Of a stretch of DNA of 64,000 nucleotides, positions 14,440 through 58,660 are shown piece after piece (position 1 is the stretch's first letter; every line of letters begins with the position of its first letter). The stretch is from NCBI GenBank assembly GCA_035235625.1, contig CP141143.1, forward strand, positions 37,185,178 through 37,249,177, given 5' to 3'. This stretch comes from Saururus chinensis. Lineage: Eukaryota; Streptophyta; Magnoliopsida; Piperales; Saururaceae. The notes beneath the pieces are model-generated. The model was given only the letters and a program-made list of their open reading frames with translations. It ran no database searches and had not been told where the DNA came from. The translations under genes were made by a program, and so were the position numbers.

Positions 14440-14740
14440 TTGTGTGTTAGACACTTGATATGTAGGTTGATAGATTATAATTATGCATGATATGATTGTG
14501 TGGTAGAGACACTTCTCATCCAGGTTATATGTGATGTTTATGCATAATATGATGGTGTGGTAGAGACACTTCTCATGCAAGTTATATATGATGTTTATGC
14601 ATGATATGATGGTGTGGTAGAAACACTTCTCATGGAGGTTATATGTGATATTTTTGCATGATTAGAATGTGTGATAGAGACACTTCTCATGTAGGTTATA
14701 TGTGGTGATTATGCATAATATGAATGTGTGATAATCACTT
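14440..14740 (+). repeat. Tandem repeat of about 60 bp in LTR A
   Basis: Four to five units share 'gtggtagagacacttctcat' followed by 'aggttatatgtgatgtttatgcat'. A diverged version is present in copy B (about 30850-31160), so it belongs to the family-1 LTR. Confidence 0.8.
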
Positions 14741-24221: not shown

Positions 24222-25292
24222 TTAGTAGTAAGGAGGAGGTGAAGAAGCCGATGGTGGAGGCGGAGATTGGTAGTAGTAGTTGTGATAATAGTAAGGAGGA
24301 GGAGGGGATGGCGAGGGGGGTGGTGGGGACTTGTAGTAGTATGGAGGAGGTGGTGATGGGGACGGTGGTGGAGGTGATTTGTAGTAATAGGGAGGAGGTG
24401 GAGATGGAGAAGGTGGGGGAGGAGACTTGTAATAGTAGGGAGGTGGTGGTGATGGGGAAGGAGGTGGTGGGGACTTGTAGTAGTATGGAGGTGGTGGAGA
24501 AGGTGATGGTGGAGGTGGGGACACGTAATAGTATGGAGGGGGTGGGGATGGTGAGGGTGGAGGCGGAGACTTATAGTAGTATGGTGGTGGTGGGGATGAC
24601 AAAGGTGGTGGTGGAGACTTATAATAATAAGGAGGCGGCGGAGATGGTGATGGTGGTGGTGGGGAGTTATAGTAGTATGGAGGAGGTGATGGTGGTGGAG
24701 GTGACTTGTAGTAGTATGGTGGAGGTGGAGATGGAGGAGGAGGAGATTTGTAGTAGTATGGTGGTGGTGGAGATGGAGAAGGTGGTGGAGGAGATTTGTA
24801 GTAATAAGGAGGCGGTGGAGATGGTGGTGGTGGTGGTGGGGACTTATAGTAATAAGGTGGAGGTGGAGATGGAGAAGGTGGCGGAGGGGACTTGTAATAG
24901 TAAGGAGGTGGCGGAAATGGTGATGGTGGTGGTGGGGATTTGTAATAGTATGGAGGAGGTGGAGAAGGTGAAGGTGGTGGAGGGGACTTGTAGTAATATG
25001 GTGGGGGTGGAGATGGTGAAGGTGGTGGTGGTGACTTGTAGTAATATGGTGGAGGTGGGGATGGAGAAGGAGGAGGAGGAGGAGGAGGAGACTGGTAGTA
25101 GTATGGCGTTGGCGATGGTGGAGGAGGGGACTGGTAATAATAAGGCGGAGGAGGTGAAGGAGATGGGGAAGGAGGGGACATGTAATAGTATGGTGTCGGC
25201 TTGTAGTAAGGATCAAAAGCCGCAACGCTGGCGGAGGATGCTATGGAGACGACCATGGCCAGCCAAAGCCATGGCCTCCAGAGAGTTTCCAT
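24222..25292 (-). CDS. Extensin (Tyr-rich, Ser-Pro4 type), 356 residues
   Basis: This encodes a secreted hydroxyproline-rich structural protein of the plant cell wall. Residues 1 to about 25 (METLWRPWLWLAMVV then small residues and SVAAFD) form a signal peptide. The remainder is about eighteen tandem units of 16 residues, YYYKSPPPPSPSPPPP, with K replaced by V, N, Q or H in places. Ser-Pro4 blocks are the known sites of proline hydroxylation and arabinosylation. The Tyr triplets and Tyr-x-Tyr motifs are known to allow isodityrosine cross-links. The frame is open without introns and ends SASSPPPYY. The start is the first Met, followed by a good signal peptide, with a TATA box about 80 bp upstream. 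Repeat number may vary between alleles. Long frames on the opposite strand and in the other minus frame are shadows of this repeat. Confidence 0.95.
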   Translation of the reverse strand: METLWRPWLWLAMVVSIASSASVAAFDPYYKPTPYYYMSPPSPSPSPPPPYYYQSPPPPSPTPYYYQSPPPPPPPSPSPPPPYYYKSPPPPSPSPPPPYYYKSPPPPSPSPPPPYYYKSPPPPSPFPPPPYYYKSPPPPSPSPPPPYYYKSPPPPPPSPPPPYYYKSPPPPSPSPPPPYYYKSPPPPSPPPPYYYKSPPPPSPPPYYYNSPPPPSPSPPPPYYYKSPPPPLSSPPPPYYYKSPPPPSPSPPPPYYYVSPPPPSPSPPPPYYYKSPPPPSPSPPPPYYYKSPPPPSPSPPPPYYYKSPPPPSPSPPPPYYYKSPPPPSPSPPPPYYYHNYYYQSPPPPSASSPPPYY

Positions 25293-25370
25293 GCCTTTTG
25301 TGAAAAGTAATTGGAAACTCAGCCCTCGAAAGTACTTTTTGTTGTGGTCTTTGGTACCTTAGTTACCTCC

Positions 25371-28409: not shown

Positions 28410-31400
28410 TGTAAGAACTATTGTCTTAAACCGGTTTACTTTTACTTTTATTTATTATTTGATAATCATTATGTGGTTTAAGCCGTTTCTAATCAATGTT
28501 GATGATTTTTAAAAATAAAGGTGGTTTTCAAAGATTTTAATCAAAACTAACTTCACTTTTAGGACTTTTAAGTGAATTTAGGTCAATTGTGAATTTTTGA
28601 AATTTTTTCAAAATTTTTAAAAATTTAGTGTTTGACGGGACCCCCTGTGGGCCCCACAGTCGAATTTAGGTTTTTGATAAAAAAATATCAAAAATATTAA
28701 AAATTTAAAAAAAATTTGGACTTAATTTGGGTTTAAATGACTAATTACCTACTTTTAGTTAAGAATTTTATTTACACCCCAAGTTTTAATTAGGTCTACC
28801 CCTTTCTTTCCTATAAAAAGAAATGGCTGACTCCTTTCCTATTTGGGAAAGGACTGAACTAAAAAATCAAGAACCTAATCCCCATTAGGCCAAAAGAGGA
28901 AGGTGATTAAAGGTAAGATTTTCTTAATTCTTTCTTAATCATTAGGGTTTTTCATAAACTTCTTCTAATCTCATCTTTCTCCATTGATTCAATTTATTTT
29001 CAAGCCATTAAATCACTTATTTACATCTCTATTTCAACCCTAGCTTTCAAAATTTTGTTTTTATGCCTCTAAATATCTAGGATTTTTTCAATAATTTTTA
29101 AGTTTAAATCGGATTTAGGTGGATATTAACAAAAAAATTATATTTTTGGAAGGTTTCGGAGGTGATTGAGGAGCTAATCTGGCTTAAAACAAGGGAAAAG
29201 GTAATAATGGGTTTAATCTCAGCCTTACTATGTTTGAAAATCTCAATTTTTATGTGTTTTGCTTGAATGAGCTTCATGTTTAGGGCTTTAATGGTGGATT
29301 AATAAAAAGTTAATCTTTTGCCTTGATTTTTTAGGGTTTTGATTTGAAATGGGTTGATTTAGCATTCTGGAATGTTTGATTGAATTTTCATGATGTTTAA
29401 GGCTTTGATTGAAGGGTTTTAAGTTTTATTAATAATTTTTCAGTTTAGTTTTCAAAATAAAGAAAACAAACTAGATTTGTCGTTATGGCGATCAATCGCC
29501 CTTCAGGCCTATTAATTGGCCAAACAGAGTTGTAGGCCAATTTTTAGGCCAACCGATCGAATGCCCTTTTGGCAGATCGATCGGCTACACAACAGATTTG
29601 GGCATTTTGGGTTTTTTATGCTTATTTTAGTATTTTTACTCCCAAATAATATTTCTAATGTTATTTGGAGTAATTTGAGTTAGAATAAGCTACTGGAAGG
29701 GTATGTTATTTAAATTGGGATTTATGAAGCATGCTTAAGTATTATGTGGAATTATACGATTATGGTTAAACATGTTAGCATTGATTATCTTGAGTCTATG
29801 GTTGATGAAATTCTTATGCTTTAAGCATGTTCTAGGAAGGTTATTGTATGACAAAGATATGATATACCATCTTATAATATGAATGAATTGTGGGTGAATG
29901 GTGATATCATGTTCTAGCTTCATATGTAAAATAACTATGTTTGTAAGAGTTGAGCATTTGATTTCATATGAATAGAATGATGGTTTACGATAGATTTCAC
30001 CTATTATTTTAGTTGGTAAACATGATTAGATTTTATCAAAGCATGTGTGTATTGCCTTATGAGCTATTGTCAAAGCATGGTCATGTGCTTAGGAATGTAT
30101 AAACACACACACATGTGGGGAATTGATTATGAAATCATGGTTGTTTATGACTTGAATATGATGTATGTGAGGACTGATGGGAACACATTCCATGTGTTAG
30201 AATCAAGTAGAGATTGCTCACGTATGTATCATGTTACATGTATCATGAAACGGATTTCATGAATGAGACTTTACCGATAGCCGTGGTTGATCGATTGGAT
30301 GCAATGATGTGAGATTTTGTGCTGAATTAGTCGATTGTTGGCTTAATCGGAACTTGGCTAATCTAAAAGGACATAATTTCGATTTGAGTTCCTGTGTGGA
30401 ACATGGATACTCCCGGTTGAGTCGATCTGAATTGTTGATGCGGTTGAGATTTATTTATTGAGATAGTCAAACCTAGACCCTGAGAATCCAGAGTGGTATG
30501 CCTTCGTGCATCGGCTACCGCATGTTCTAGTTTCCCCGTGTAGGATTCAGACTCTCCTACCGCAGAGATGTCCAAGCCAAACACATTGCTCTAGGTTTCC
30601 GTAAGGAATTTGGACGTTCTTGACCAGGATTGTCTAGGGCGAGCAAAGGGGTTGACTACCCCAAACACCCCAAGTTTATGCAAGGAATTCAGACTGTGTC
30701 CAGATCGGGCAATGTCTTAGGTTTCTAGTTAGGAAATTGGACCATGTCCAAGGCGGGTGATATGATTGTATTTCTCTCCATGATGGAGATATTCACCATT
30801 TGTTGTTGATGCATGTGTATAAGATAATATTATGCTCAGATTACACAGGTTGTGTAGGGATATTTGAGATTATGTGACACATGTGGATTCAATTTATTAT
30901 GCATGATTTAGTATAGTGTAATTGAGACACTTATCATGCAGGGTGAATGATTTATGGATGAATGATATGAATCTTCATTATGTGATTATGTGCGTTAGAG
31001 ACATTTCTCATGCAGGTTATATATGTGATGTTTATGCATGATCTGAATTGTGTGATTGAGACACTATCATGAAGGTTTATGTGATATGGTCGCATGATTA
31101 GAAAGTGTGTGAGAGACACTTTTCATGTGGATTATGTGTGATATTCTGCTTGAGTATGATAAGATAAGGATCACTGCCTATACAGGATGGATGCTAAGTT
31201 GTAAAATGATCATTTATGCACTAACTTGATATATGTGTTATATGCATGTTAGATCTTTTACTTATGGATAAGTAGGGGTTTAGTAAGGGGATGATTAGAA
31301 AATAGTAGACCATATTATTTATGGATCTGAATTGCCATGATGTTGTGTCATGATAATTTTTTTATTAATGTTACCACCTTTAAACCATTATTGAGTTTTA

Positions 31401-31876
31401 TACTCACCCCTCTTCTGTGATTTATTTTGGGGCTGCATAGTACGATGTGCAAGACAACTTATTTGAGGGATGACATGGGTACTCATGGGATTAGCCTTCA
31501 TGGCATTCCGATGATGTTTTATTTGCTGATTTTATCTTGGTTGACCTTAGAGAACATTATATGATGGATTATGTGTTATGCTCGAGTTTATCTGTTGTTC
31601 TTAGACTTGTTTAAACTTATCTGATTTTAAGCCATGTGTAGGCTCTGGAGATTATTATGTGGGTTGTGTGAGGATTTATTATAGTTTATTATCCTATTCT
31701 TTATCCTTACTTCTCTTGCTCAAAGGACGTGAGGTGCACTACTCCGTTAGTTGAATTGCCCGTTAGAGGGGTTAAGTCTTTCGCAATTCGATAACCTGTT
31801 AAATTCTGTTGCCCCCGCACTCTGACCGGCCCTTAGACTGGGTTCGGCTCGGGTTGGATGGAGCCGGGGCATGACA
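28410..31876 (+). mobile_element. Solo LTR B (family 1), 3.47 kb
   Basis: It begins TGTAAGAACTA and ends GGGCATGACA. Flanks are GTTCC (28405-28409) and ATTCC (31877-31881), a 5-bp duplication with one difference. It matches LTR A in order and sequence: TATAAAA near 28813, 'aaaggtgattaa' near 28899, 'agctactggaagggtatgtt' near 29688, 'attctcaggg'-like and 'tgcatgatat'-like segments later. It is longer than A, partly because of an extra segment around 30450-30760. No Ty3 coding sequence is present. Confidence 0.9.
29492..29590 (+). repeat. GATCGATCGG-type motif cluster in LTR B
   Basis: Motifs 'gatcaatcgcc', 'ccgatcgaatgcc' and 'gatcgatcggctacac' follow each other. The last is identical to a 16-mer in LTR F. 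Copy C carries 'gatcaatcg' variants at the matching place (about 55445-55500). Confidence 0.8.
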
Positions 31877-33400: not shown

Positions 33401-34946
33401 ATATAATAGTATGATTGTTGTGTATGATAATTAAGTGAATGCATGTTAAGTTATACATATATGATATTGGGGTAAGTAAGCTTTATGTATGTATGAATCC
33501 TTATAATAGATAGTCACCCATCGACTATTAGATTTTGACACTCAAGGACAAATGATCCTAGTGTCTGGTTGGCTATAAAAGTGAGCTGTTTTAGCCATAT
33601 AGATAAATGGCATGGTATGAAACATGGTCATGGTATTTCGGCTATCCAAAAATGAGAGTTTGTATGTTGAATCGCTCTCCTAGCTTGGGAGTTAGGTTTG
33701 AATGGATCATAGCATTAAAAAATGAATGAAATAGTGTAGTGCAATACAAGAAGTTTCAATGATCACAAAAGTCAAGATCTTGACTACTTGGGTCTATGAG
33801 CCCTTGTGGGCCTTTGCTTCAATGTGTGGATGGAGCTGGACATTGTCTTCAAGAAAAGGCTAAAGTCGAGTTGTGGTAGTTCATTATCTAGTGAGAGTTC
33901 TTGGACTCCTAAATGTAGCTACTAAGTTGTAGAGACCGGGTGTGATATGTACTTCAGCTGGGGTGTTGGACTCCAAGGTTTTGTCACATGGTTAAGGTGA
34001 TTATTCATTATGACTTGTATATATTTGATGATTGCTTGTGATACTTGAATTGTTTTTATATTACCATTACATGTGTTTCTTGTTTACCTATCTTACTGGA
34101 TATAATTAAATACTTAGCATCTTCATGATGCAGGTTCACCTCAAGAGTGAGCTGACCTAGTGTGTGAGGAATGGATGACAATCAAACTACATATCAAGTG
34201 TAGGACCTCTTCCGTAGTTGAACTTTTAGTTGGTGTATATAACTATAGTCACATGAGTGCCAATTTTTTAACATTTGTTTGTATATTGTGTATGCTAGAC
34301 ATGTACTCGGGTAAGACCTTGTTTGGTTTATGATATGATTTTGAATACTATGACACTCTAGTTTGATAATATTATGTTTGGAAAAAGGGTAGCTTACACA
34401 TTGAAATATCTTGTCAAAAGTCTTGACAAAAGTTTTAAAAATTTGTTGTCATTGTTGGATTTATGGAAAAATAAATTTCAAAATCTTAGAGTGTGGCACT
34501 GTATATCCAGGCATGATTGCCTACATACGCCCATGAATCCAGCTTCATATCTGATTACTATGCCAAGTAAGAGTCTTCACATCCGTCTTGCATGCATAGG
34601 ACCTCCCTTATGTTGATGCTCCCAACCTACCATTGAGACCCATTGCAAGTAGGACTTCTGCAAATCTGTTCACTAATGCCCATATACTATTGATGTGCAC
34701 ATTTGTCCCCAAGTATGCTTGCCTTTGCTTTCCGCACGCTAAACCTTAGGGGCTATCTAACCCCTTTGTCTATCAAGTGGCTAGGGGTCTAACAGTTAGA
34801 AGGAGGGGATGAATAAAATCATCTTAGGCAATAACTTTCATTTGTCTATATGATGTCAATGGGGAAAATTTTCATTTATCTATCTCACATCAAGGGGTTT
34901 TATGTACAAATTTTTATAAGTCATATGGTTATTTACATTTTAAACA
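33401..34946. other. Unassigned, LTR-like in part
   Basis: The stretch with 'tatcttactggatataatt' and 'gatgcaggttcacctcaag' (about 34090-34150) resembles the R/U5 part of long plant Ty3 LTRs. No ends could be set. A frame of 80 codons at 34374 has no recognisable product. Confidence 0.35.
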
Positions 34947-34955
34947 TATAGGGTA

Positions 34956-35185
34956 GGGAAAATTATTTAAATAATATTTAAAAAATATTTGCCAAAAGCA
35001 CACATTTTGGGAAATATTTCCCAAAATGGTGTTGCTTTTGTCCACATAGGTGCTAGCCAAGTGCTGGTGCATGCGTGACTTTTTTTTGATATTTTTATCG
35101 ATTTTGTCCTTCCAAAGGATGAAATCCCCACACAACACTCTCACAGACTCACTAAATCAACTTAAGGTGATTTTGTCCTTTAAAA
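34956..35185 (+). repeat. Left terminal inverted repeat of the MULE
   Basis: It pairs with about 41670-41896. The outer 130 bp match best; the inner part has repeated 'gattttgtcctt...aaaggatgaaat' boxes, which are themselves short inverted repeats. Confidence 0.8.
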
Positions 35186-35931
35186 GGACAAAATCCCTTC
35201 TTCTTTACCCCCCGCTCCCCTTCCAGTTTGTCTCCAATGTTTCGCTCTACCTAGAACCGTGTGCGCCATGCTCCGCCCAAATCCACTACCAAGCAACCAG
35301 CAATCACCATCTGAGTGACCAGCCCAGATCCGCCTCTATCCACCCAGACCGAAATTCGCCCCCTTAAATTCGTCCAAACCAAAATTCACCCAAATCAGAC
35401 CAAATCCGCCTAGATTTGCCTCTTTCACACAAATCCGCCCCAATTTCTAGGTAAATTTCCTACATTCTTATTCATGCTTTTTTTTTACAATTTTTAAGAT
35501 TTCCTTTGTGCATATAGCAAATCTATTGAAAAGTAATAGGACATAGCTCAATTAAAAAAAAATCTATGTTAAAAAGATAAATTCAAAAGTGCCCCAAAGG
35601 AAATGTACTACATTGCATCCCTTGGACTAAATGTGGTTTGAATATTTGAGGAGCCATGGCTTCCACTAACCATTGAGAAAGATGGGTTAGTCTCAGAGAC
35701 AAATATCATAGATCTATCTCAGATGTCAATGAGGATTAGTTCATACATCTATCTCATTCTCAGATGTAGAAACCTTCCTGTTGATTGGTAAACATACAAT
35801 TAGATTGTGACTTTATTTACTCTCTATTTTAGATATGACTATGTGTTCCTCATATTCTTAATTCTCTGCAGATAACATGGATCATATGAAGCCTTTTTAT
35901 GGTCCAGGCCCCATTGATGAGATGATACTTG

Positions 35932-36605
35932 GGGTCTATTTAGATTGGTGGAAACCTGGAGAAAGGGAAAGGGAAAGAGAAAGAGAAAGAGAAAGAGAAA
36001 GAGAAAATGAATCCAGGTAAAAGAGAAACTAGGAGATTCCTAAAAAATTTCCACTGTTTGGTTGCATAAATGAGGTGGAAGTGGTGTTGGTGGTAGTGGC
36101 AATGGTGTTAATAGTAACGGTGGCGGCAGTGGTGGTGGCAGTAGCAGTGGTGGTGGTGGCGGTGGTAATGGTGGCGGCAACAATGGTAGTGGTGGCAGCA
36201 ACAGTGCTAGTGGTGGCGGCAATGGTAATAGTGGTGGCGACTGTGGTGGTAGCAGCGTAGTGGTGGCAGGGGTGGTGATGGCAGTGGTGATGGTGGTAGC
36301 AACAATGGTGGTGGCGGCGGCAATAACGGTGGTGGTAGTGGTAGCAGCAGTGGTGGTGGCAGCGACATCGGTAGTAGTGACAATGATGGTGGTGGTAGTA
36401 GCTACAAGACATAAGTTTTTAGTACATTGATTTCTCCCAAAATCCATGGGTTGATGGGTAGAAAGTTTTTGGGCCAATTTTTCATCCATTTTCACTCAGT
36501 TTTCACTGTAGTTTCTCTTTCCATATTACACCAAATAGTAGAAACTGGGGGCTTTTAAGAATATTCCTTTCCTTTCCCCCACTTTCCACCAATCTAAACA
36601 GACCC
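35932..36605. mobile_element. PIF/Harbinger-like (Tourist-type) element, 674 bp
   Basis: The ends are GGGTCTATTTAGATTGGTGGAAA-like inverted repeats of about 23 bp (the other end reads GGGTCTGTTTAGATTGG as reverse complement). TTG flanks both ends (35929-35931 and 36606-36608); the usual Harbinger duplication is TWA, so a 3-bp TTG is a mild departure. The interior has GAAAGG/GAGAAA repeats, then a long GGT-rich block. No transposase. It splits the PMD coding exon. Confidence 0.75.
36070..36413 (+). repeat. GGT/GGC-rich trinucleotide repeat block
   Basis: About 340 bp made mostly of gtggtggcggcaatggtag-like triplets. Frames on either strand give Val/Ala, His/Cys-Tyr or Thr/Ala-Pro/Leu runs and are not genes. 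Confidence 0.9.
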
Positions 36606-36946
36606 TTGTGCAGTAGGAGTGGCATAGGTCAACTTCTATTTGGCAAGGAGAGGCATTCTAATTGTTCATAAATTTTATTTTATTTTATGACTATATATTA
36701 TGCTAGTTTATAATATTAAAATTTATTATAAGATCCCAGGTGCCTTGAGTACACTGAACATTTTCGATATCTCCGACAGTGGCCCATAGATAAGCGTATT
36801 TTACCATATTTTAAGCGATTAGGATTGGGACCTTTCATTCACATATAGTACGTTTGTCTTGATAGGCCTTTATTGACAACTCTTGTCGAGAGATGGAGGA
36901 GGGAGACACATATATTTCACCTACCTTATGGGGTGATGTCCATTGC

Positions 36947-39473
36947 TGTAACGACCGCGAATTTTTGGTATGTTTTCTTGCCTCTAATAAAACTATTTTA
37001 TGAATTTCTAATTATTTTAAATTATTTAGAGGTAGATATTTTGAGAGTTTTTATTGGGTTATGATAGATCTCGGTGAGACGAGCGTAACGAACCTAAGAA
37101 CGTATAAAACGGAGGTCGGGAGCGAAAGTTACGACCTCGAGAAAATGTCTTATGGGTGGGACCCACTTTAAAAGTGCAGGATAACCTACCCATGTGGGGT
37201 CTAGTTTCAAAGGGCTTGTCGATATGAGTCCATCGGTACTAAGAATGCACGATTTTGACCTCGGAAAAAAATGTCATATGGGCGGGACCCACTTTGAAAG
37301 TGCGGGATGACCTACCCATGTTTTGGTCTTATTTCGAAGGGCTCGTTGACACAAGTCCATCGGTATCAAGAACGTGCAATTCCAACGTCACGATTGGAAG
37401 TTATCGCGTTTTGAGTTCAAGATATTATTTTAATAAAATAATATCATTCTGGATAGGATCGATGATGCAGTGGATAAGACTGACGACAAAGCGGATAGGA
37501 TTGATAGTGGATAGGATTACTGACAAAGCGGATATAATTGATAGTGGATAGGATTGCTGACAAAGCGGATAGGATTGACAGTGGATACGATTGACATGTG
37601 TTAACCTCACATCTATCCAATTCTTCTATAAATAGCATCCTCAGCATCCAGTCTCTCTCACGTTTTCTCATTTCTCTCCCACGTTCAGAAACTTCTGTTC
37701 TTCATTTCTTACTCGTTTTAAATTCGATTTAAGTCGTTTAAGAGGCGTTTCTACCTAAATCAAGCGTGTTGGACATCATGGCGGGGTTATTTTTCTGGTT
37801 GGAGACCTCCAAAACCCCAAAAGTGGACATCCAATTTCGTGGTATCCGATTTATCGGTTTTGAACTCGCACAAAAAGCAAAGTAGGGGCTTTTATCCTTT
37901 CTTATGGCATGATTATAATATTTGGTTGTCTTTTTAACTTATTATTTATATGACTCTCGCATGTTATGTGCTAGAGATTATTTTCAAGATATGATTTATG
38001 GTTTTTGCATATATATCCGATCTGTTGAATGATTAATCGTTGAGATAGAATCTGATTTATATAGCGTATATTTATAATGTTATTATGTATATTCGAATAG
38101 TCGAATGATTTGCCGTTGGAAGCGGATATGTTTTATACTACATGCATTATGATTGCCTCATACATAATAGTTTGATCGAATATTTATTCGTGGATTTTGA
38201 TATAAATTATACACGATGGAGCATGTGAGATAGCGACAAACTAGCTTCGCCATTGTTTTCATTGTGAATGAATACAATATGTTTAAATGACAGTTTTAGA
38301 GGACTCGTCCTTTTTAAAAGGAGGATACTCAAGATTATTTTTGAAAAGACGTATAAGCATGGTGATCGAGTCACTGAAACGGGACAAAGAAGGGGTAACT
38401 GTCTCATTGGAATGAGCGACCAACCTTGCCTTTGTAGTCGTTGATAGTGACGCTCCCATGTCTTGTAGAGGCGAAGCTAGGATTTTCAAAAAGATAAACA
38501 TTGGGATAAAATATTTTAAAAGAAAACAGCTCTTTTTGGAGTCTGGGAACTCTAGGATATTTCGATTTGAGTCTGGGACTCAAGATTATGAGTCTGGGAC
38601 TCAAGATTATGAGTTTGGGACTCATGAGTGTTTTGGTTGTCCGGAGCTATTGTTGGGCGCCTCGATAGAGCTCCGTTGACTAGATGAGAGCACAATTAAT
38701 CTGGTTCGGAATCGGATGCACGGTACCTAATTTAGCCTGGTGAGCCCCTAACGAAGGGCAAGATCCCTGATTCGCCCCTAACGAAGGGCAATTATTAAGG
38801 CTACACGCGCTAGGGTAGAGAGTATCATGGGAAGACTCTCTACTCTCTAGATCTCGGCGCCCCATGAGCACGGGTGGCTCTTCTATCCACAAGGACGAAA
38901 TGTTTTGAGATGATCTGTGGAGAAGTAAGAGGTCGCTGCTTTGTACCCGCAGCAAGATTCTTATTAATATATATATATATATGTCTGGGATATTTGTAGC
39001 AAGCCGTGAGAGCTTGCAAACCCTAGTAGCATCTTCGATACGTAGGAAGAAGCTCTAGGGGTGGTTTTGGGTGAGAGACACACCCCATTTTCATGGAAAA
39101 TACTATATATATATGTGTGTTGTGAAACTGCCATGTGTTTATTCATGCCTGATAGTATAAACTCCCCTACTAAGTATTTTAAAATACTCACCACCCCCCA
39201 GGCTTTGTAGGATTCAACAAAGCTTAGTGTGCGGGTAGAAGGGCCTACTCCGAAGTTTTATCGATGTGATTTCAAGGATTTCAACCGCACTGAAACGAGT
39301 AAGAACTCCTTATTGTTTTTCTCTTGTGTGTTTGTACACGGACTGTGGTTCCTGGGGATACTACTATTTAAAATATTGCATATGGTGATCAGTTCCAGTC
39401 GCGGGCCTAGGTAAACTCCGATATCTTTATGAAAAGAAAATTTTATATGCTTTTAAAATCCCAGGGCGCGACA
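36947..39473 (+). mobile_element. Solo LTR H inside the PMD exon, 2.5 kb
   Basis: It runs from TGTAACGACCGCG to GGGCGCGACA with exact ATTGC duplications (36942-36946 and 39474-39478). The PMD exon resumes directly after it. It has no coding region, so it is a solo LTR of a Ty3-like element. Inside are a tandem duplication of about 130 bp (about 37128-37385), a unit of about 43-45 bp repeated before a TATA box (37440-37605), and three 22-bp units of 'gagtctgggactcaagatta' (about 38566-38630). Confidence 0.92.
37440..37605 (+). repeat. Tandem repeat upstream of the LTR H TATA box
   Basis: Units of about 43-45 bp carry 'gtggataggattgctgacaa' and 'agcggatagga'. About four units end some 20-30 bp before a CTATAAATAG sequence (near 37628), the place of an LTR enhancer. 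Confidence 0.8.
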
Positions 39474-41669
39474 ATTGCTCTCATGGATGTGGCAATTCTT
39501 TTAGAACTTCGCATCAATGGAGAGGCTGTAACAGGCACGATAGGAGGAGGAGATTTGAATTTATTAGTCAGACTCCTTGGCAGAGCTTCTTCTCCTACAG
39601 TGATGCATGGTATTTGAGTGAGCCTTAGATGGCTCTTAGGTGGGTTTCATGCACTTCTAGTAGATGCCACAGAGATAGTGATTGAGTAGCATGCATGAGC
39701 ATATTTATTACATTTACTTGGGGTTACGATATTTGCGGATAACACGAGTAGCCATGTTAATGTTGTGTATATCTCCCTCCTTACAGATTTCAACATGGCA
39801 GACACTTATGTTTGGGGCAGTGCCACTCTTGCATTTTATACTGAGAGTTAAGGAAAACATGTTAGGCCATGACCTTGAGGATTGCAGGCTATCTAACCCT
39901 TCTCGAGGTAAATGAATTCATTGAAGTTAATATTTTTTACACGCATAATTACTTCGCATTTGCTAATAACTTTTATATCATTTTGTGACACAACTATGGT
40001 TGTGGGAGCATTTACATGTCGGCTAACCAAGTATTGAGATGAGTCACGTAGTCGAGGGTGCTCCATTAGGAGCCAGGTAGGGTATTTTTATTTTTTACTC
40101 TTAATTTTTTTAGCATAGTTTTATTTGGATATGCTGAACTTATGTTTTAAATTTGACTCAAGGTGGAATGTTCAGAGGAAAAAAACCGAAAATCCACAAG
40201 GAGTCCTCTGTTTGTATAGAGGAGAGCTAGACCACTAGCGGCCTTATCAGGTAATTTAATTTTATTATCAAATTTCATACAATGATCATAAGATATGTAA
40301 GGTCATTAAAATTTAATTATCTTTATAAAATGTGTAGGTTATTTGGCAGCCATACTTCCCGAAGGCTTTGGCTGAGTTACCTCTTCTTTGTACTGAGGAT
40401 AGAGATATGTGGCTCTCGCGAACGCCACTCATATGTTTTGAGATTGTTGAGATGTATGTGCTGGATCGTGCTATGCTCCAGTTTAACTTGGAGTAAGAGG
40501 TCCCTCCTCGTACTGTCGAGTTTGTCCATCGCATCACTCGACAAGGCCACCATATTACCGACTGGGCTCTACATCATGCCACATATATCGCTCGATGGGA
40601 TAATATGAGAGCCACTATTATCCGAGGGGAGATGGCTACAACATCGCGAGATGTTTGTAGACCGTATATGCAGTGGTATTTACCCATTATGTGGCGATAT
40701 ATTTTACTGTGCGATGATGCAGAGGAGATGACATATCAGCCTAGGGGTGCATCTAAGGCAACTTTGGTAAGTATATCATAATTAATTTTCTAATTATATT
40801 TTCTTATTTCACATTTATTATGTATCTAACTTTTATTTTTATATAGCTTGGATTAGTGAGACAGACACTTGCCAATTTGACTAACGCATTTAACCCTTAA
40901 TACTTCAGGTGAGATCTTATTAGCATCATGTCAGTTGATGTTCAGGCAACATCATGATGTCCTTAGTAGCTTGCCCCTCCTTTAGTAGGTGATTATAGAT
41001 GTTCATAGACATTATCATACCCACGAGGTAGCTCATACATTGCCGAGGCACAATCTATTCCTTGATATTTCTAGTTGCTCCACATATAGGTTACCCCTAG
41101 CCAGGTTTGATAGTATATTATAGACGACAACGGGCAGCTTGTGTTGAGACATCTTTTACTTATGCGGAGCCGGAGCCAGAGCCAGAGCCGGAGTAGGCGG
41201 ACCATGAGGAGCTAGAAGAGCCAGTATAGCATCGTCGGGGTCGAGGCCAAGGTCAAGGACGTAGGGGTAGAAGAGATTGAGCGACTTAGAATTGTGACAT
41301 GTTTGTTTTGTAAACTAATGTACTTTGATGTATTTATATTATTGTGTTTTATATGTTATTTCTATAGAACATATGTGATGTTATACAAAGATCAATTTAT
41401 ATGTTTTATGTGAAACATATCTGATGTTTATGCAAGGATAAATTTGTATGTTTTGTGTGGATGATATTTTATGTTACATAGAGACAAGTGTTGTTTTCAA
41501 TTTTAAGCTATAGAACAAAATAAAAATCCATCAAATTTCATCCTTTTTAAGGACAAAATCTCATAACTTCCATTCGCCGCCTTCTTAAAGCCATGATTAT
41601 GTCCAAGCCTAGGATTTCGACTTTACAAAGGACGAAATCATCACAACTAGGGTTTTTTCTTTTGGAAGG

Positions 41670-41896
41670 ACGAAATCAGCTTATGTTGATTTTGTCATTT
41701 TAAAGGATGAAATACACTTAAAGTGTGATTTATCCTTCCAAAGGATAAAATGGATGAAAATTTCAAAAAAAAGCCATGCAGGCCCAACACTTGGCTGACA
41801 CCTACATGGACAAAAGCAATTCTATTTTGGGAAATATTTCTCAAAATACGTGCTTTTGGTAAATATTTTTTTAAAATTTATTTAAATAATTTTCCC
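41670..41896 (-). repeat. Right terminal inverted repeat of the MULE
   Basis: Reverse complement of the left arm, with 'ggctgacacctacatggaca' matching 'tgtccacataggtgctagcc' of the left arm. The inner border is approximate. Confidence 0.8.
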
Positions 41897-41905
41897 TATA
41901 GGTTA

Positions 41906-43470
41906 AGTACAGGTCAATTGTGATGATGCACATAGTGGGTTCTAACATGAGATTTTTGATAATGATATCACATAACTTTATATAAAGAATGGGTCTATCT
42001 ACACTCCATTAAACTCCTCAACACCCCATTTTTTAAAAAAAATTAAATCCTTTTTTTACTCTTTAAAGTCCAAATATGCCATTATTTCTCTCCCTATTTA
42101 CCCTACCTCCGCAAACCCCACACCTTCCACTCCCAACTATGGCAACAAAGGCAACTCTGGCATGAGACTCCAGCGGCAGAAACTTCAGTCACCTTTCTCC
42201 TCCCCCTCGCCTCCTTTGACCAACTTCGGCTAGTGCTTTTGGCCGCGACCTCAGCTGTAGCTAGAAGCTCATGGCAAGAAGATTTGGTTGTGGAACTCTG
42301 ATCATGACTAGAAGTTCTTGCTACAACCAGAGTTCCGGCCTAAGCCACAACTTTTGCTCTTATTTGCGGCTAGGAGCTCCGACCAATGAACTTTGGTCAT
42401 GACCAAAAATTTTAGTTGCAGACGCAACTCCGGCCATGGCTAGAGCTCTTGGCTGAGGAACTTTGGCCATAAGCTTTTGTCCACTATAGGACGAGGAGGA
42501 GGTCGTCGGCGCCAACATGCCAACACTAGAGAAGAAGAGGGAGAAAAGGGGGTCCAAATAAAAAATCTATAGGGTACACGAGAAAATTTAAAGAAATTCG
42601 AAGGGATACATGAGAAACTGAGTACAGAGGAGATTACTGAGGTACAGATGGACACGTTCTAAGTGAAGAAGAATTGAGTCCTCCTTTTGCAAACAACTAA
42701 AAGTCGATTCACTAAATACATTGAGTCGAGCAAGTTTAAGATGGCTGAGGTTGAATTCAACTCACCCGGCCAATGTAAGAACACTTGGCTTGTGCTCCTC
42801 TCCAACTTTGTTTCTCACTTTTTTTTAAAAAAATCTTTTTTGGCTAGAAAAATTGTGGTAATTTAGTTGCTTCTAAGTCGCCAATTCATTGTAGACCTTA
42901 TTTCCCAAAAAACATAACCATGGACCTTCCTATTTTTTAGCCAACTTTGAACAGTTTCCAACTCTCCTCGCTACTGTATGCTCTTAACCCATCCCTAGAA
43001 AGCGAACAATTATTTGATACTCCTAGAGTACTGCTACGTAGAATTTACCCCCATTTTACACCCACTTCAATTTGGTACTTCATTTTAAAACGACAACTCA
43101 AATATGCTGACACGACACTAAGTGTAGAGAAGCTTCTCTACAATCAGTTGTAACGGACCTCTTTGCATATGTACAGTCGATCCTAGTAAAAGTAGTAACA
43201 AACAGCTCTCATTAAAGAGGAGGTGAGGACTGATTTCGTGTGCCGCAGCGATATGCGCTCTCTCTCTCTCACACACACACTCTGTCCCGTCAGTCTGATG
43301 CAGCCTGTTTGTCTCTCGCATGTCGGGAGCCGAAACCAACAGAAGCCATTAAATAACAGCCCGAAAACGGAACCAGGACAAGAACCCCCTGCATCTGTTT
43401 CATGTCCGTTTCTGTACACTAAAAACGACTCCGCCCCAAGACAAGCACTCCCTCTGTTCCTTCTCTCTGT
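41906..43470. other. Intergenic between the MULE and the RING E3 gene
   Basis: No gene recognised. 42090-42520 is richer in GC with repeated 'gctagaagctc'/'aactttggc' words. A short CT/CA microsatellite lies at 43258-43282, in the proximal promoter of the next gene. Confidence 0.5.
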
Positions 43471-47600: not shown

Positions 47601-50600
47601 AATCCCTTTATAATGTGATGGATTTATCCTTTTGTCCCTTTAGTTAGTAATTTTTTAATGGTTATTAGTATGGTAAAGTGACTTCATGAAAACTAGGAAA
47701 ATGGATTGAATACACGAGGGGCACCTAAGTGAGGAATTGAACCTCTGGCAAGAAAGTTTCAGTCTACAGGCAGCATGAGAAAAAGGGTTCTAGATGAGGG
47801 ATCAAGAAAAAAGGGAAAGGCGAAGGAGACTGGGGAAAGTGAGAATGGGGTCAGGGTGAGAGATATAACGGGAGTGAAAGAGGCATAGGAAAGACACTAT
47901 TTTATTCAATACTTGATCATGAAAATTACAATTGGTTAAATAGGACTAAGCAAACTGTTATTGCCAAGATATTAAAATTACAAATAAGTCCTTAATTATT
48001 ATGAAATTATTCTTAATTCCCTAGTTCTTACTTCGGGTTAGTCCTTCAGTTGTGACAAAATGCAAAAATGAGCAAGTTTTCTTACAAAGTAAGTGAATAC
48101 CATTGCTGCAACAAACAAAAAGTGAATACCATGGTTATAATTTGTTGGATATGCTATTTCCTTCATAGTGGTTGGCACTTCTTGAAATGTTCATTTAGTT
48201 ATTGCTGACACTTCTCATCAAATGGTTTGTGCATCGTATGAATTACACAAAAACAACGCCAAAACTGAAACCAATTTTGCACTGAAGATGTGATAAGATG
48301 CAAGAATCTGTAATGGAACTACTTTATCCTTAGAGAGATGGAGAAGGGGAGAGAGAAAGAGATAGACGTACAAACAACTAGAAAATGCAAACTAAGGGGT
48401 GTGTAGTCATGTAGATATGAAAAGGAGAGGGGATGATCATTTCTTGCAGGTCTCACCCTTTTAATTTTCTTTCAATTTTCTAGGAATATGCTAATTGCAA
48501 AACACACCTTAAAACTCGCATTTTAGACAATACCTAATACTGTGGGCACCATATTCATTAATCCTCCCATATAGTTGATTAAGATATTTGGTCATATCTG
48601 TGCAGCTCTTCAACTATTAATCATATTTGTAGTTCCATTGCCATTGAAGAACAACTTTTTCAGTAACTTTGACTCCACCGATTATCTATTAATTACAATT
48701 GTGGGTTGTCATGTTTGTGCAATTCTTGGAAAGAAACTGAAAAGTTCCTTCAATTTCAATATATGTTGCATTCATTCTTCCAACAATTGGGAGTATGTGT
48801 ATGCTTATAGCTGATGTTAATGGGAGTATGTGTATTCTAGTTATCTCAATTGGGGAAGTTCAAAATGCATATACCATATTGCTTCGTCGTTATATAGAGT
48901 CTAATCTATTTCTTCCATAAAAAAAGTACAATCAATTTTTCTATGACCCGCCGTAAGCTTAGGCCAATTAACCTATTATGATTTGGTAAGTTACTTATAA
49001 AGTTGTTGGATTGGTACAAAATTGTTGGAATCCAATTTATTAGTGTTTGTTCGGATGATTGGTTAGAATTAGAAGTCCTTTGTCAACTAGGATTAGAATT
49101 TTTATTTGAGTCCCATTGCCCAAGCCTACTATGTGTAAGGAGATACTACAGTTTCAATGAATTGAATATTGCTTTCTTTATCTTCTCTTCCAAATTTCCC
49201 AAACACTCCTCCAATTCCCTCAGGTCGTCATTAATTCCCCATCTTTTTGGCTCTAATCCTTCCCTTTCATCTAATTTTTCCTTAAATTTATCACCCTTCC
49301 CTGCCATAATCACGTTGTGAACTTGCTAGTTCACATCAAATTTCTCCCGCTCTCTTAGAATATTTATATGATTAAATGACAAAAAAACCATTGTGAGAGT
49401 CTAAGTTTCACATCAGGGCTGACATTGATAATAATTACTGCTGTATAAATTTACTTTCTCAAAGTACCTAATGAAGTATTTGCTGATTGTAGGGATTACA
49501 TGTAAATTGGCAAGATAACATTGACCCGGACTCAATGGCCTATGAGGTTTCTATACTTTGTTACAGCATCTTAATTCTACTTTTGTGGATGCTTCTTTTA
49601 ATAGGACTTAGTTAATGCTTGAAAATCTGTTTTTGGCGAAACATTAAAATTATATTTGGTGCATAGTTAATAGAATTGGGTTATGACATATTAAACTGTC
49701 CAATTGAATACTTGTATCATAAAACCTGTGTGAATCAGGGTAGGATGGATTGACTTGACTGGGTTCGAATCTTCTACTTCTACCTGGTTCAGCATATGAA
49801 AAGCACATTTTATAATTTTATAGCTTAAAATATATAAATAGATTACAAAGATTACATGAATATTGCTTCTTATAGTCTAAATTGCACCATATGAATGTGT
49901 TTCAAACAAACTACACACGCGTGCAAACCACCCCCCCATACATGCACGCAGAGCTGCCATTTTGGTTGTATTAAACTGGCCAAAAGATTGGACATTGGAC
50001 ATGTTTTTTATTCTATATTTGTTTTTTATTCAGTCTTCAAACTGCAGGAGCTGCTAGAGTTGGGTGAAGCTGTTGGAACTCAGAACCGGGGACTTCCCAA
50101 ACAGCTTATTTCTTTGCTTCCTATCACAAAGTATAAGCGCAGCTTTTTCTCAAGAAAAAAGAAAGATTGCGACAGGTAGCTTTCATCCCCTTGCTGATGC
50201 TTTCAGTTATTAAGAAGTTGTTACTGAGATGGGGAAGTAGTTTCAAGAAAAAACATTTAAGAAATCTTTCATTTGCATGCGTCATTGAGATCGGTTCTAC
50301 TAGCTTAAACTACTTCCTGAAGGCCCAAGCTTTCATCAACGTCCAAAAACGAAACTGAGGACCTGAATTCACTTTCAATTAAAACATGTCTGAATCAAAT
50401 CAAAAAATTAAAAAGGGTCTGAAAGTGAGTTCCGGAAACTTCTTTCTTTTTAGATCTCTACCCCCTCCCTTTTCTATTTTACTTTCTTAAAGAATATCTA
50501 TTCCTCCCTTGGCTCCACAATTATGAAATTGCCTGTTTAATGTGGTCCTATAAGTATTTATGCTTCATCTTAAACAGGTGTGTAATCTGTCAGATGGACT

Positions 50601-50835
50601 TTAAGGGAGGAGATTGGCAAATGACACTTCCGTGCAAGCATACTTATCATACTAAGTGCATAACCAAATGGCTGGGCATTAACAAGGTGACACGATCCTC
50701 TTGAAGCTAGTGAACCGCTCTTTGTTATTGTTTGTCTTTTTAGTTCGACAAAAAGGTGCATTACAATTGCGTCTACTCTTTCAGGCGTGCCCAGTTTGCT
50801 TTGTTCAGGTATTTGGGGAGGAATCAAGCTCTTAA
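44622..50835 (+). CDS. BB: E3 ubiquitin-protein ligase, BIG BROTHER type (RING-H2), seven coding exons
   Basis: Arabidopsis BIG BROTHER is a ubiquitin ligase that limits organ growth. Coding exons, all with AG/GT borders and consistent phase, are 44622-44753, 45218-45416, 47075-47109, 49493-49546, 50048-50175, 50578-50686 and 50785-50835. The product is 235 residues (Arabidopsis BB is about 248). Residues 8-17 'EVHYINTGFP' match the family start. 'SAEECI' spans the exon 2/3 junction, 'VNWQDNIDPDSMAYE' and 'ELLELGEAVGTQNRGL' are the conserved middle, and the RING-H2 is CVIC...CKHTYHTKC...KWLGINKACPVC at about residues 184-222. All eight metal ligands are present. The end is VFGEESSS. The start follows an exon beginning at 44604; a second Met is at residue 7. 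Assignment to BB rather than a close paralogue rests on recalled sequence. Confidence 0.93.
46110..46755 (+). repeat. Three direct repeats of about 210-220 bp in intron 2 of the RING E3 gene
   Basis: Units start at about 46110, 46332 and 46551 with 'tgaaaagaaga'. Each holds 'cttgatctnagtttgggttc', 'aaagctcttgttggttgaaa' and 'tatcacttcttttgtctttg'. Units 2 and 3 are closest over their first half. Unit 1 has an extra 'attggttgaaaagtaaa', and unit 2 has a doubled 'tatcacttcttttgtc', both small secondary duplications. Confidence 0.92.
47110..49492 (+). other. Intron 3 of the RING E3 gene (2.4 kb)
   Basis: No gene is seen inside. At about 47325-47360 'cgtcccaattgtttggggtc' resembles a word common in plant retroposons ('tgtttggggtcggctacatg'), so a decayed retroposon may lie here. 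Frames of 79 and 105 codons at 48575 and 49003 look random. Confidence 0.6.
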
Positions 50836-53429: not shown

Positions 53430-56400
53430 TGTCACACCCTGACACCACCCAACCTGAGCTGAACCCTGTTCAAGGGTCGAGCAAGCGCACAGGGGTGATA
53501 GAAATTGACGTATTAATGTATTACGGAAGTTTTAGCTCCTCAAACGGGCGATCATAATGGAGTAGCGCACCTAATGTCTTTTGAACAAGAGAAATAAGGA
53601 TAACAAAGAGAATAATAAAACTACCATAGTCCTCACACCAACCCACATAATAGCTTCCAGAGCCTACATATGGCTTGAAATCTGGAAAAGTTTAGACAAG
53701 TCTAAGAACAACAGATAAATGTGGGCATGATACATAATCCACTATATAATGTTCTCTAATGTCAACCACGAGAAAATAAGAAAATAAAATATCATCTGGA
53801 TGTAACCAAGGCTAATCCCATGCGAACCCATGCCGTCCCTCATATAGGGAGTCTTGCTCGTCTGCACGTCACACTGTGCGTCCCCAAAATAAATCACAGA
53901 AAGAGGGGTGAGTATAAAACTCAGTAATGGTTTGAAAATGATAACTTTAATCAGAAAATTATCATGGCACAACAACATAGTAATTTAGATCCATAAATGA
54001 AATGGTATGCTCCTTTTCTAATCATCCCCTTACTAAGCCTCTACTTATCCATAAGTAAAAAGATGTAGTATGCATATAACACATCTCAAAATCAGGGCAT
54101 AAATGATCATGATATGATCTAACATTCATCCTGCATAACTGGTGATTCTCACACCATCACATTCACAATCATGCATATTAAGCCATTCTCCTTCATAACA
54201 TTCACCCTGCATAACACGTGTACACAACACATACTCACATAATGCGTATTTATTTCATTCATCCATAGATCATTCACCCTGCACAATAAGATTATTAATC
54301 ACACGATACTAAATCATGTCTAGTAATAATATTCACGTGTTAAAAATCTCAAATTATCCCAACATGACCTATGTAACATGCGCAAAATATTATCTTATTA
54401 TCTCATACACATGCATCACCAACAAATGGTGAATGTCTCTATCATAGAGAGAATACAATCAAGCCACATAGGCTGGACATGGTTCGGTTTCCACATAGGT
54501 AACATAAGGTGTTTAGGGACAAGCCTAGCCAAGGAATGTTCGAATATCACATAGAGAACCTAGAGCAGGTGTGTTCGCCCTGAAACATCTTCTGCAGTGG
54601 GAAGAATCTGAATTCCAAACAGGAAACCTAGAACATGTGGTAGCTGGTTCACAAAGGCATACCACTTTGGATTCTCAGGGTCCAGATGACTATTTCAAGA
54701 AATCTCAACCGCAAGACAAGTACACAACTCGTCTTCATTCATCTCAACTCAATTCAGATTGACTCAACCTGGGGAGTATCCATGTTCCACATAGGAACTC
54801 AAATCGAAATATGTCATTTCAGACCAACCAAGTTCCAATTATGCCAATGATTGACTAATCTAGCATGCAATCTTACATCATTGCATCCAATCAATGAACC
54901 ACAACTAAACATCGGTAAAGTCTCATTCATGAAATCCGTTTCATGATGCATTCAACATGATACATACATGAGCAATCTCTACATAAATTCTAACACATGG
55001 AATGTGCTCCCACTAGTCCCCACATGCATTATATTCAAGTCACAAACAACCATGATTTCATAATTAATTTCCCCTTGCTTGTGTATGTTTAAAATACGAC
55101 ATACATTCCTAAGCATATGACCATGCTTTGACAATAACTCATAATGCACTACATACATATTTTTTCTAACATCTAATCATGGATCTAAACTGAAAACATG
55201 AATCGAAACCATCAGAAACCATCATTCAAATCATGGATTCAAGTTAACAAATCTAACATGTTTGACCAACATCATGTAATTCCGCATGATACCCAATTAT
55301 TCTTCATACATCCTAACATCACTAGCATACTCTTCCAGTAACTTATTCTAACTCAAATCAACCCACATGAATATGAGGAATAATATTTGGAAGTAGAAAT
55401 ATCAAAATAAAAAAATGAATTAAAATGTTCAAATTTGTTGTACTGCCGATCAATCGGCCTGCAAGACCATTTGATCAGCCTATAAGCCCGATCAATCGCC
55501 ATAACGGCAGGTCTAGTTTGTCTTCTCTATTTTGAAAACCAAACCGAGACTTCATCAATCAAACTTAAAACCTCCAATCAAAGCTCTAAAATTCATAAAA
55601 ATCTAATTAAAACTTCAAGAATGCTAAATCTACTCATTTTCAATCAAAGCCCTAAGAAATTAATACAAAATATTAAGTTTTTACTAATCTACCATTAAGG
55701 CACTAAACATGGAATCCGTTGAAGAAAACACACCAAGAACAAATATTTGAAAACACAACAAGATTGAGGCTTAAACCCATTACCTTTCACCACTCTTTTG
55801 GTCAGAATAGCTCAATCTCCTCCAAAACGTACCCAAAACATGATTTTCATTAATACTTCTCAAATCCGATTTTGGAACACTAAAAACCTTCAAGAATAAG
55901 TAAGGGTTTTAGAAACCCAAAAATGAAAATTCAAACATTAGGTTTGGATATAGAAACCCAAATAAGTAGGTTTTGAGTGAAAACCGAGATTAATTCAAAG
56001 CAAAGGAAGTGATTTGAAAGATTTAGGTAAAACCCTAATGGATTAAGGGAACATTAAGAAAATTAAACCTTAGTCTCTTTCCTTTTTGGGCAAATGGGGG
56101 ATTAGGCCTCTTGATCCTAGGTTCAGCCCTTTCCCAAATGGGAAAGAGGCAACCTCTTTCCTTATATAGTAAGGAAGGGGTTAGACCTAATCAAATATAG
56201 GGGTACAAATAGAATTTATAACTAAAAATGAGTAATTTGGCTATTAAAACCATAATTAAGATAAAAAATTCTAAAATAATTTTCCAATGTCTCAATTTTG
56301 ACCATGGGGTCCACTATGGGTACCGCCAACCCTAATTTTGGATAATTAGTGAAAATTTTAAAAAATTTAAAAAATTCTAAATGACTTAAATTAACTTAAA

Positions 56401-56547
56401 AACTATAGATGTGAAGAAAGTTTTGGTTAAAACCTTTGTTAACCACTTAAATTTTAAAAATAGTCAAAATTGATCAGGATTGACATTAAACCACACAAAA
56501 GCAGTTAAATAGAATAAAATAAACCGGTTCAAGATAAAAGTTCTTAC
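53430..56547 (-). mobile_element. LTR copy C (family 1), 3.1 kb
   Basis: The plus strand runs from TGTCACACCCTG to AAAGTTCTTACA, the reverse of copies A and B. Landmarks agree: 'gaggggtgag' (53903), 'attctcagggtc' (54672), 'ttccagtaact' (55334). Flanks TGGTC and CAGTT do not match, so this is not a clean solo insertion; a rearrangement or deletion at one edge is likely. There is no primer site or polypurine tract at either edge. It abuts pol sequence of another Ty3 element on the right. Confidence 0.85.
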
Positions 56548-58660
56548 ACAGTTGCCATGGCCTGCTTCAGCCTCTAAAAGGCCTCTTGGGCCACTTCTGT
56601 CCAAGTAAAGGCCCCCTTCTTGAAGAGGGTAGTGAGGAGACTAGCAATCGTCCCATATTGACTGATGAAGTGTCGATAATACCCTATAAGGCCAAAAAAT
56701 CCACCAAGTGCTCGGATACAAGTGGGGGTCAACCATGAGAGCATAGCAGTCACCTTCGAAGGGTCAGTGGCAACCCCTAAGATCAAGATGAATCGATAGA
56801 GGAAGGACGGAATAAGTCATTCATGAGTCTCTAGAAGGTGGCTGGTGCATTGGTCAACCCAAACAGCATGACCAAGAACTCAAAGTGGCCATTGTGGGTG
56901 CGGAAGGCTGTCTTGTGAACATCGGCTGGCTACACAAGAATTTGATTATACCCCGAATAAAGATCAAGCTTATTGAAGATGGTCGCTCTGGTAAGCTCAT
57001 TGAGGAGCCCTCAATCAACAAAATAGGATACTTATACTTGACAGTGATTGCATTAAGTGTTCGGTTGTCCACATAGAACCACCAAGTGCCATCTTTCTTC
57101 TAGACCAGTAACACTGGAGAAGAGAAGGAACCAGTGCTCTGTTGGATGATACCTGACTAGAGCATGTCAGCCACCAAGCGCTCAATCTCCACCTTCTCAA
57201 TGTGAGGGTATCGGTGCGGTTGGACATTTGCAGGTGAAGCACCAGGAATGATAGGAATGTGGTGATCATGTGGTCGGACCAAGGTAGCCCCTTAGGCTTA
57301 GAGAAGACATCCTCATGCTCCGCCAAGAGAGCTAATAGATCCTCTGGAAGGCTGCCTTGGTGCACATCCACTGTAGCATGCTGATGAAGAAAAATTCCCT
57401 TAGGTGCAAACTGAAAGAGGGAGCTCACCGATTGGGTGGACTACAAAGTGCTTGACTAAGAACCTTGGATGCGCACCTGCTGCCCATGCACTTTAAAGTC
57501 CATGATCATGTTGTGGAAGTTCCACATGACGTATCCAAGATCCTGAAGCTACTGAACTCCCAACACCATGTCCGCCGCTTTTGTTGGAAGCAAGAATAGA
57601 TCGGTGGTGAAGGTATAGCCCTGGAAAGATAATGAAGCTTGTGCACACACCCTAGCGTTCCAAAGGTGTTTTCCATCACCGATCAAGAAGTCGAACAGCT
57701 TCGAGTCTAACATGAAACACCCCAACCATTGTGCCACCTTATCATTAATGAAGGTATGGGTGGAGCCGTTGTCGATAAGGATGGCAACTTGCTGGCGCTT
57801 GAGGTGGCCTTGGACGCGCATGGTGTGAGGAGTGAAGGCCCCTAAAAAAGCATGCATCGAAATCTCAGGTAGCAAGCTGTCATAAGGGGTCGAGCATCTA
57901 GGGCTAGATCATACTCCTCATCGGCCTCCTCGACTAGTAGGCTGCCTCTAACGGAACATTGATGGCTTGGTACGAATTTCTCATTGCACTTTAAGCACAA
58001 GCCCTTCAATCGCCGCTCTTCCATTTGGGCTGGAGTGAGGCATCGTACAACAGGACTAGTAGAGACGTATGGCTGGCTGGGGTGGCAGGTGGGAAGGCTG
58101 GTCAGTGTGGTAGGGAAAGGTAGGGGGCTGGTTGGGGACTAAGGAGACGAGCCCAGTCGGCCTCTTTATCTTTGTAGGCCAGCTTCTCTTCCTCAATTCA
58201 TGCATGACATACGACCTCACGCATCGACATACAAGGAAAATGACACATCTCATTTAAAATTTCTGGTTTGAGCCCTATGTTAAAAGTTCCCACGAGGGCT
58301 GTCATCGGCTAATCAAGGAGGCGATTTACAATCTTCATGAACTCGGTGTAGTATGCTCACATAGTAGTGTTTTGGCACAGGGTGGACAACATCTCATTGA
58401 AATCTTGGAACTCGTTGGGCCTAAATTGGACACAAAGCTTCTTGGTGAATGAAGTCCAAGTTAGAAAACGGGCCTCCTTTTTGAAGCTCTAAAACCAAAT
58501 GGAGCCATCGCCATCTAGATGGAAAGCAGCTATGTGCAACTGTTCAGCGTCGGAGTGATTTCCCTGGTAGGCAAAGAATTTCTCCACCTTGTAGAGCCAT
58601 TTGTTGGTGGATTTCGGTAGTTCCCTACGCATAAGTCAAGAGAATAGATCGGATGATCCT
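56548..58660 (-). mobile_element. Second Ty3-type element: gag, protease and partial reverse transcriptase (fossil)
   Basis: Reading leftwards on the minus strand: gag-like sequence (about 58660-58060), a zinc knuckle 'CLKCNEKFVPSHQC' (about 57980), a retropepsin site 'ILIDNGSTHTFI' (about 57770), a reverse transcriptase start region (about 57350-56850), and the reverse transcriptase/RNase H junction 'FFGLIGYYRHFI' with 'AFTWTEVAQEAF' (about 56680-56580). The order and motifs fit a chromovirus-like plant Ty3 element. It is broken in several places and stops where LTR copy C begins, so RNase H and integrase are missing here. No 5' LTR or primer site was recognised to the right. Confidence 0.88.

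Follow-up and report, generated by a model that had tools for sequence, protein, structure and literature searches.

The interval 34956-41896 of the 64,000-nt stretch of DNA analysed here (the window) is a Mutator-like element (MULE) whose plant mobile domain (PMD) gene is near full-length but broken, and it is best read, with a probability of about 0.7, as an old, immobile, non-autonomous MULE either descended from or belonging to those MULE groups of plants in which PMD is an accessory gene. A sequence-only reading had already proposed a Mutator-like element with a PMD gene at this place, and this is confirmed by the terminal arms, the 9-bp target duplication and the match to the Pfam family PF10536. 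The element adds an inactive case to the known association of PMD with MULEs. Its features are listed in Table 1.

Table 1. Features of the Mutator-like element and of the insertions it contains.
Feature	Position	Strand	Basis
Left target-site duplication TATAGGGTA	34947..34955		8/9 match to right copy
Left terminal inverted repeat	34956..35196	+	alignment to reverse complement of right arm
Palindromic arm motif, copy 1	35100..35126		pattern search, <=3 mismatches
Palindromic arm motif, copy 2, perfect dyad (26/26 outside centre)	35169..35195		pattern search; dyad scan
PMD 5' coding piece, broken by passenger 1	35868..35930	+	open frame by eye; no Pfam match alone
Passenger 1, 674-bp inverted-repeat element	35932..36605		inverted-repeat ends; flanks
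Presumed PMD coding continuation after passenger 1, stop 36614	36608..36652	+	by eye; included in stop count
PMD exon, first part, stop 36846	36732..36946	+	PF10536 2-45, E 2.1e-8
Passenger 2, 2527-bp LTR-like insert	36947..39473		TG...CA ends; flanking duplication
PMD exon continued after passenger 2; stops 39615, 39687, 39696, 39849	39474..39911	+	PF10536 43-156
Presumed PMD exon, stop 40024, without upstream AG acceptor	39991..40077	+	PF10536 180-207, weak, E 0.29
Presumed PMD exon, stop 40236, GT-AG introns on both sides	40161..40250	+	by eye; no Pfam match alone
PMD exon of 144 codons with a single stop, at 40494	40338..40769	+	PF10536 239-346, E 7.2e-17
Presumed last exon, decayed; acidic EP repeat and RG-rich tail	40844..41276	+	by eye; no PMD match
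Palindromic motif copies, right side	41534..41752		at 41534, 41613, 41651, 41688, weak at 41726
Right terminal inverted repeat	41650..41896	-	alignment with left arm
Right target-site duplication TATAGGTTA	41897..41905		8/9 match to left copy

Terminal Arms and Target Duplication

The alignment of the left arm with the inverted right arm showed 77.4% identity over 252 columns (E 9e-47), in agreement with the long inverted arms described before, and the length of about 240 bp each is that of the long terminal inverted repeats of a TIR-MULE. The arms are flanked by a 9-bp target duplication, within the range of 8-11 bp given for MULEs in PMC6446971; the earlier claim of such a duplication holds as to its presence at the arm ends, but the two copies are imperfect and agree in 8 of 9 bases. 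Among 200,000 random pairs of 9-mers taken from the window, 51 matched as well as 8/9, a figure to be read with the many boundary offsets and lengths tried in the duplication scan. When both ends were shifted one base outward the arm end improved to 20/20 (from 19/20) but the duplication was reduced to 6/7, so that the ends of the element are uncertain by one base. Arms of this quality, bordered by a 9-bp duplication, are not a product of chance. A similarity search of the window did not turn up the arms a second time; the sole match to their sequence outside the element is one of 24 bp at 5174 (E 0.009).

PMD Gene and Domain Content

The PMD gene is a multi-exon gene on the plus strand. When the whole frame was scanned with in-frame stops read as X, its PF10536 score of 134.2 bits lay above the gathering threshold of 34.9 (E 8.2e-39; plus strand, frame 1, in three stretches), which upholds the earlier placement of a PMD gene inside the arms. 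A gene of this kind marks the window as plant DNA. Eight stop-free pieces of the gene were also scanned separately with Pfam; five of them matched PMD at E<=1 and one exceeded the PF10536 cut-off alone (35.3 bits). In the exon-by-exon scan, the exon 36732-36946 gave 34.2 bits, just below the cut-off, in a scanned stretch that ended at 36953. Exon by exon the matches cover positions 2-45, 43-156, 180-207 (weak) and 239-346 of the 347 of the family, positions 43-156 being matched by the stretch 39474-39848 with an E-value of 2.3e-14.

A six-frame scan of the element at E<=0.1 gave PMD as the only Pfam family, in accordance with the earlier statement that PMD is its sole gene; no transposase is visible to Pfam. 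A MULE transposase is a mark of the autonomous members only and is not needed for a non-autonomous one. A transposase as well preserved as the PMD gene should be visible to the Pfam scan, and one in a far more advanced state of decay might escape it. Rfam gave no match at the gathering threshold in 34900-42000.

Two weak candidates were rejected. A match to zf-LSD1 in the last exon (E 0.072) was below the cut-off of that family and was taken as chance, and a link between PMD and DUF1985 rested on a weak match of one of the eight pieces (E 0.078) that was absent when the longer piece was scanned with E-values up to 10; a literature search found no paper naming both "DUF1985" and "plant mobile domain". 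Among solved structures, no match was obtained at E<=1 for one PMD exon piece or at E<=0.01 for the PMD frame read with X. Searches for PMD relatives gave 11 and 5 pattern matches for two exon-piece queries in viral contigs and 18 for one exon-piece query in prokaryote genome contigs, none of which was confirmed; these searches are uninformative because the collections are not meant for plants.

Passenger Insertions

The PMD gene is interrupted by two passengers, which are later, nested insertions. Passenger 1 has a GGT/GGC-rich interior, 38-bp ends that are 84% complementary and a possible 3-bp duplication TTG at its flanks. Passenger 2 is flanked on both sides by ATTGC (5/5), contained no Pfam domain in the six-frame scan of the element and is probably a solo LTR. 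Between 32290 and 32876 the opposite strand has stretches that resemble parts of passenger 2 (about 72-74% similarity), so that a related LTR may sit there. After subtraction of both passengers the element measures 3.73 kb, which agrees with the compact 3.7-kb unit described previously.

Decay of the PMD Gene

Eight in-frame stops were counted in 438 codons of seven PMD pieces, compared with 54 stops in 862 codons when these pieces are read in their other two frames, and the PMD reading frame is therefore clearly a former coding frame. The count leaves out the last exon and includes one piece that overlaps passenger 2 by 7 bases; for the smaller pieces the frame was picked by eye. Additional damage was seen by eye, namely a further stop at 39849 and, between it and 39866, an apparent frameshift in the exon 39474-39911, the tail of which (to 39911) was also read by eye, and several stops and frame changes in the presumed last exon. 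Inspection of five introns by eye showed that three keep both GT and AG (those before 40161, before 40338 and after 40769), whereas intron 2 has lost its AG acceptor and intron 1 has no clear GT donor.

The divergence of the arms (K) was 0.152 for the outer 127 bp and 0.286 for the full arms. Half of K corresponds to 0.076-0.143 changes per site accumulated after the element inserted, provided that the arms were identical at that time; possibly they were not, in which case the true number of changes would be lower and the age an upper bound. Under neutrality 4.2 stops are expected at 0.076 and about 7.9 at 0.143 changes per site (with the transition share taken from the outer arms and the upper value obtained by linear scaling), as against the 8 observed. 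Since the stops are not fewer than the neutral expectation, the PMD gene shows no sign of constraint or protection since insertion, a test that bears on the time after insertion and not on selection before it.

The description of this gene as nearly intact is not sustained in view of the 8 stops in 438 codons, the two insertions and, by eye, the frameshift and the lost acceptor. The claim of very few stops is true of the 144-codon exon 40338-40769 with its single stop, but not of the gene as a whole, and that of proper splice sites holds for three of the five introns but not for introns 1 and 2. The proposal that this copy argues for a role of PMD in its own spread is not supported, the stops being about as many as neutral decay predicts.

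Palindromic Motif of the Arms

In and beside both arms stand repeats of a palindrome about 27 bp long, GATTTTGTCCTTT..AAGGACGAAATC with variants. A search allowing up to 3 mismatches gave 8 strand-wise matches at 6 places, all within 35100-35195 or 41534-41714, and none in 100 shuffles; the pattern was composed from these very arms, so this control speaks for repetition and not for independent discovery. A seventh, weak copy at 41726 has 7 mismatches. The last four copies on the right are spaced 37-38 bp apart, and the two on the left 69 bp. A looser half-site matched 15 times (1.7 expected), with 11 of the 15 in the same two arm stretches. A pattern-free scan gave 48 strong 27-mer dyads in the window, some of which overlap; 6 of them fall in the two arm regions, which together make up 702 bp or 1.1% of the window. 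Folding of seven stretches as DNA gave z below -2.5 for four, including copy 2 (35169-35195) with z -6.7, but not for the other three. A second palindrome of 24 bp, ATTTTGGGAAATATTTCCCAAAAT, is located at 35004-35027 and recurs at 41824-41847 with one base changed.

The palindrome array could represent candidate protein-binding sites, either for a transposase or, by analogy with the targets of VANC (PMC5735166), for an accessory protein. In anti-silencing MULEs of the VANDAL/VANC type, a protein encoded by the element binds motifs repeated within it; here a palindrome is repeated, and its binding by PMD would be hypothetical. The Arabidopsis DOWN motif CATGCAGTTT, located in the MORC1 promoter according to PMC9899485, had no match in the element when 1 mismatch was allowed; in the window it had 10 matches against 5.6 expected, a number reached by 7 of 100 shuffles.

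Relation to Known Elements

In Table 1 of Dupeyron et al. 2019 (PMC6446971), PMD is listed, often in antisense, in seven MULE groups of flowering plants (MULE-Solanaceae_1, VANDAL, MuDR-9_OS, MULE-Monocots, MDR, MUDRAVI2 and MUDR). The duplications, where stated, measure 9 or 9-10 bp, and the arms, absent from one group, are 14-421 bp long in the other six. The present element resembles these groups in its 9-bp duplication, in an arm length similar to that of most of them, and in its internal PMD gene, which is internal in all, half or most of the members of the groups. In contrast, those groups are classified by their transposase, whereas the element has none visible to Pfam and its PMD gene is a pseudogene; MULE-Solanaceae_1, moreover, is listed without inverted repeats, unlike the armed element described here. 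The same source describes several of these groups as also encoding transposase, PMD being an accessory gene.

According to Ikeda et al. 2017 (PMC5418596), the first description of PMD came with a MULE of rice, and PMD-C was captured by MULEs on two occasions, in grasses and in Amborella, as transposase fusions. The element shares with these the location of PMD within a MULE, but its PMD stands alone and is not joined to a transposase. The Kaonashi and KIU MULEs (PMC13317346, PMC2528002) likewise carry a non-transposase gene, in many copies; they are described with a ULP-like gene and no terminal inverted repeats, whereas the element has PMD and arms. VANDAL21 with VANC (PMC5735166) is similar in combining short motifs repeated in non-coding parts with an accessory gene. 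The VANC motif YAGTATTAY differs from the palindrome of the element, and binding and anti-silencing are reported as demonstrated for VANC, while the palindrome is a candidate site only.

Nicolau et al. 2020 (PMC7156037) describe PMD as a domain of unknown function that is predominantly associated with transposable elements, the eudicots having mainly genic PMD-C. In tea, 175 phased-small-RNA loci are reported at PMD genes (PMC10673657), so that PMD genes can also be targets of silencing. In a literature search judged by titles and the beginnings of abstracts, transposase-free PMD MULEs were not found as a topic; in PMC3946583 the letters PMD name a cloning vector.

Origin of the Element

The arms, the target duplication and PMD as the only Pfam family argue for a decayed non-autonomous MULE, and its decay is indicated by the 8 stops against 4.2 to about 7.9 under neutrality, by the two nested insertions and, by eye, by the frameshift and the lost acceptor. 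The ancestor would have contained both a MULE transposase and PMD, and an internal deletion, in the element or in its source, would have removed the transposase; a deletion derivative explains the anatomy because several PMD-bearing MULE groups also encode transposase (PMC6446971). Mobilisation would then have occurred in trans, by a related transposase recognising the long arms, followed by insertion at the present site and neutral decay. In relatives with an intact PMD protein, the latter would most likely act on chromatin or transcription and so help the family to escape silencing, along the lines of what Ikeda et al. 2017 (PMC5418596) offer as a tempting speculation; the element's own copy could hardly act in this way. 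Against a deletion derivative it may be held that no transposase-bearing element sharing the arms was seen within the window, and that PMD stands alone and ends close to both arms, unlike the fusions described by Ikeda et al. 2017.

The main rival, although an unlikely one, is a Pack-MULE, that is, a non-autonomous MULE that would have captured a host PMD gene of the MAIN/MAIL type with its introns, the gene decaying later. The introns of the PMD gene (three GT-AG by eye) are what captured genomic DNA would have, two MULE captures of PMD-C genes were proposed by Ikeda et al. 2017 (PMC5418596), and PMC6446971 describes Pack-MULEs as elements that lost their transposase and bear fragments of host genes. 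The gene found here, however, spans nearly the whole PMD domain from arm to arm rather than a fragment, and a fresh capture is unneeded when PMD already resides in many MULE groups (PMC6446971). It is considerably more doubtful that the element belongs to a family whose copies with the same arms regularly carry PMD alone and use it for their spread, by anti-silencing or by recruitment of a transposase. The position of PMD as sole gene found, ending near both arms, and the palindrome array of the arms and their borders, a candidate set of binding sites, would fit such a family, but there is no shortage of stops in the PMD of the element and no sister copy within the window. A family of this kind with a working PMD has a low probability and receives no support from this copy.

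A narrower version, in which the PMD protein of such a family would recognise the palindrome (about GATTTYGTCCTTT..AAAGGACRAAATC) and lift silencing while a transposase from elsewhere moves the unit, is conceivable by analogy and would be a long shot; if true, it would represent a VANC-like system built on PMD. Lastly, it is barely credible that chance inverted arms surround an unrelated PMD gene, whether a host pseudogene or a PMD of the Ty3 type. Nothing of weight favours this, although the introns permit a former host gene; the arm similarity (E 9e-47) and the 9-bp duplication at the arm ends speak against it. A retroelement PMD gene is expected to lack introns, and the PMD-A of Ty3 elements would be intron-free between direct LTRs, whereas here three GT-AG introns were read by eye and the flanking repeats are inverted.

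With PMD already known as a cargo of plant MULEs, this copy says little by itself about PMD function. The role of PMD in transposons is a genuine question that has already been stated in print. Taken alone the element just adds another dead PMD-bearing MULE, and its value is that of a pointer: surveys based on the transposase (e.g., Dupeyron et al. 2019) would miss PMD-bearing units that have none, and the arms and the palindrome can serve as probes in the source genome for whether PMD is kept under selection in transposase-less units.

Surroundings of the Element

About 10 kb on either side of the element were scanned in 12 frames with Pfam at E<=0.01, and of these frames only one gave a match, a RING finger. 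This RING-type zinc finger (zf-RING_11, E 2.9e-8) lies at 50576-50686 on the plus strand and is perhaps an exon of a host gene. An open frame of 378 amino acids at 24225-25358 on the minus strand, with SPPPPSPSPPPPYYY-type repeats and extensin-like by eye, gave no Pfam match at E<=0.01. A long repeat is present in three diverged copies (12197-15356, 28410-31876 and 53430-56549), pieces of which are 68-79% identical, the third being opposite in orientation to the other two; the copy at 28410-31876, the only one in the Pfam-scanned stretch, gave nothing at E<=0.01. Further downstream, a fragment of a retroelement aspartyl protease (RVP_2, E 1e-6) is located at 57552-57908 on the minus strand, and a degenerate repeat array occupies 62235-64000, reaching the end of the window.
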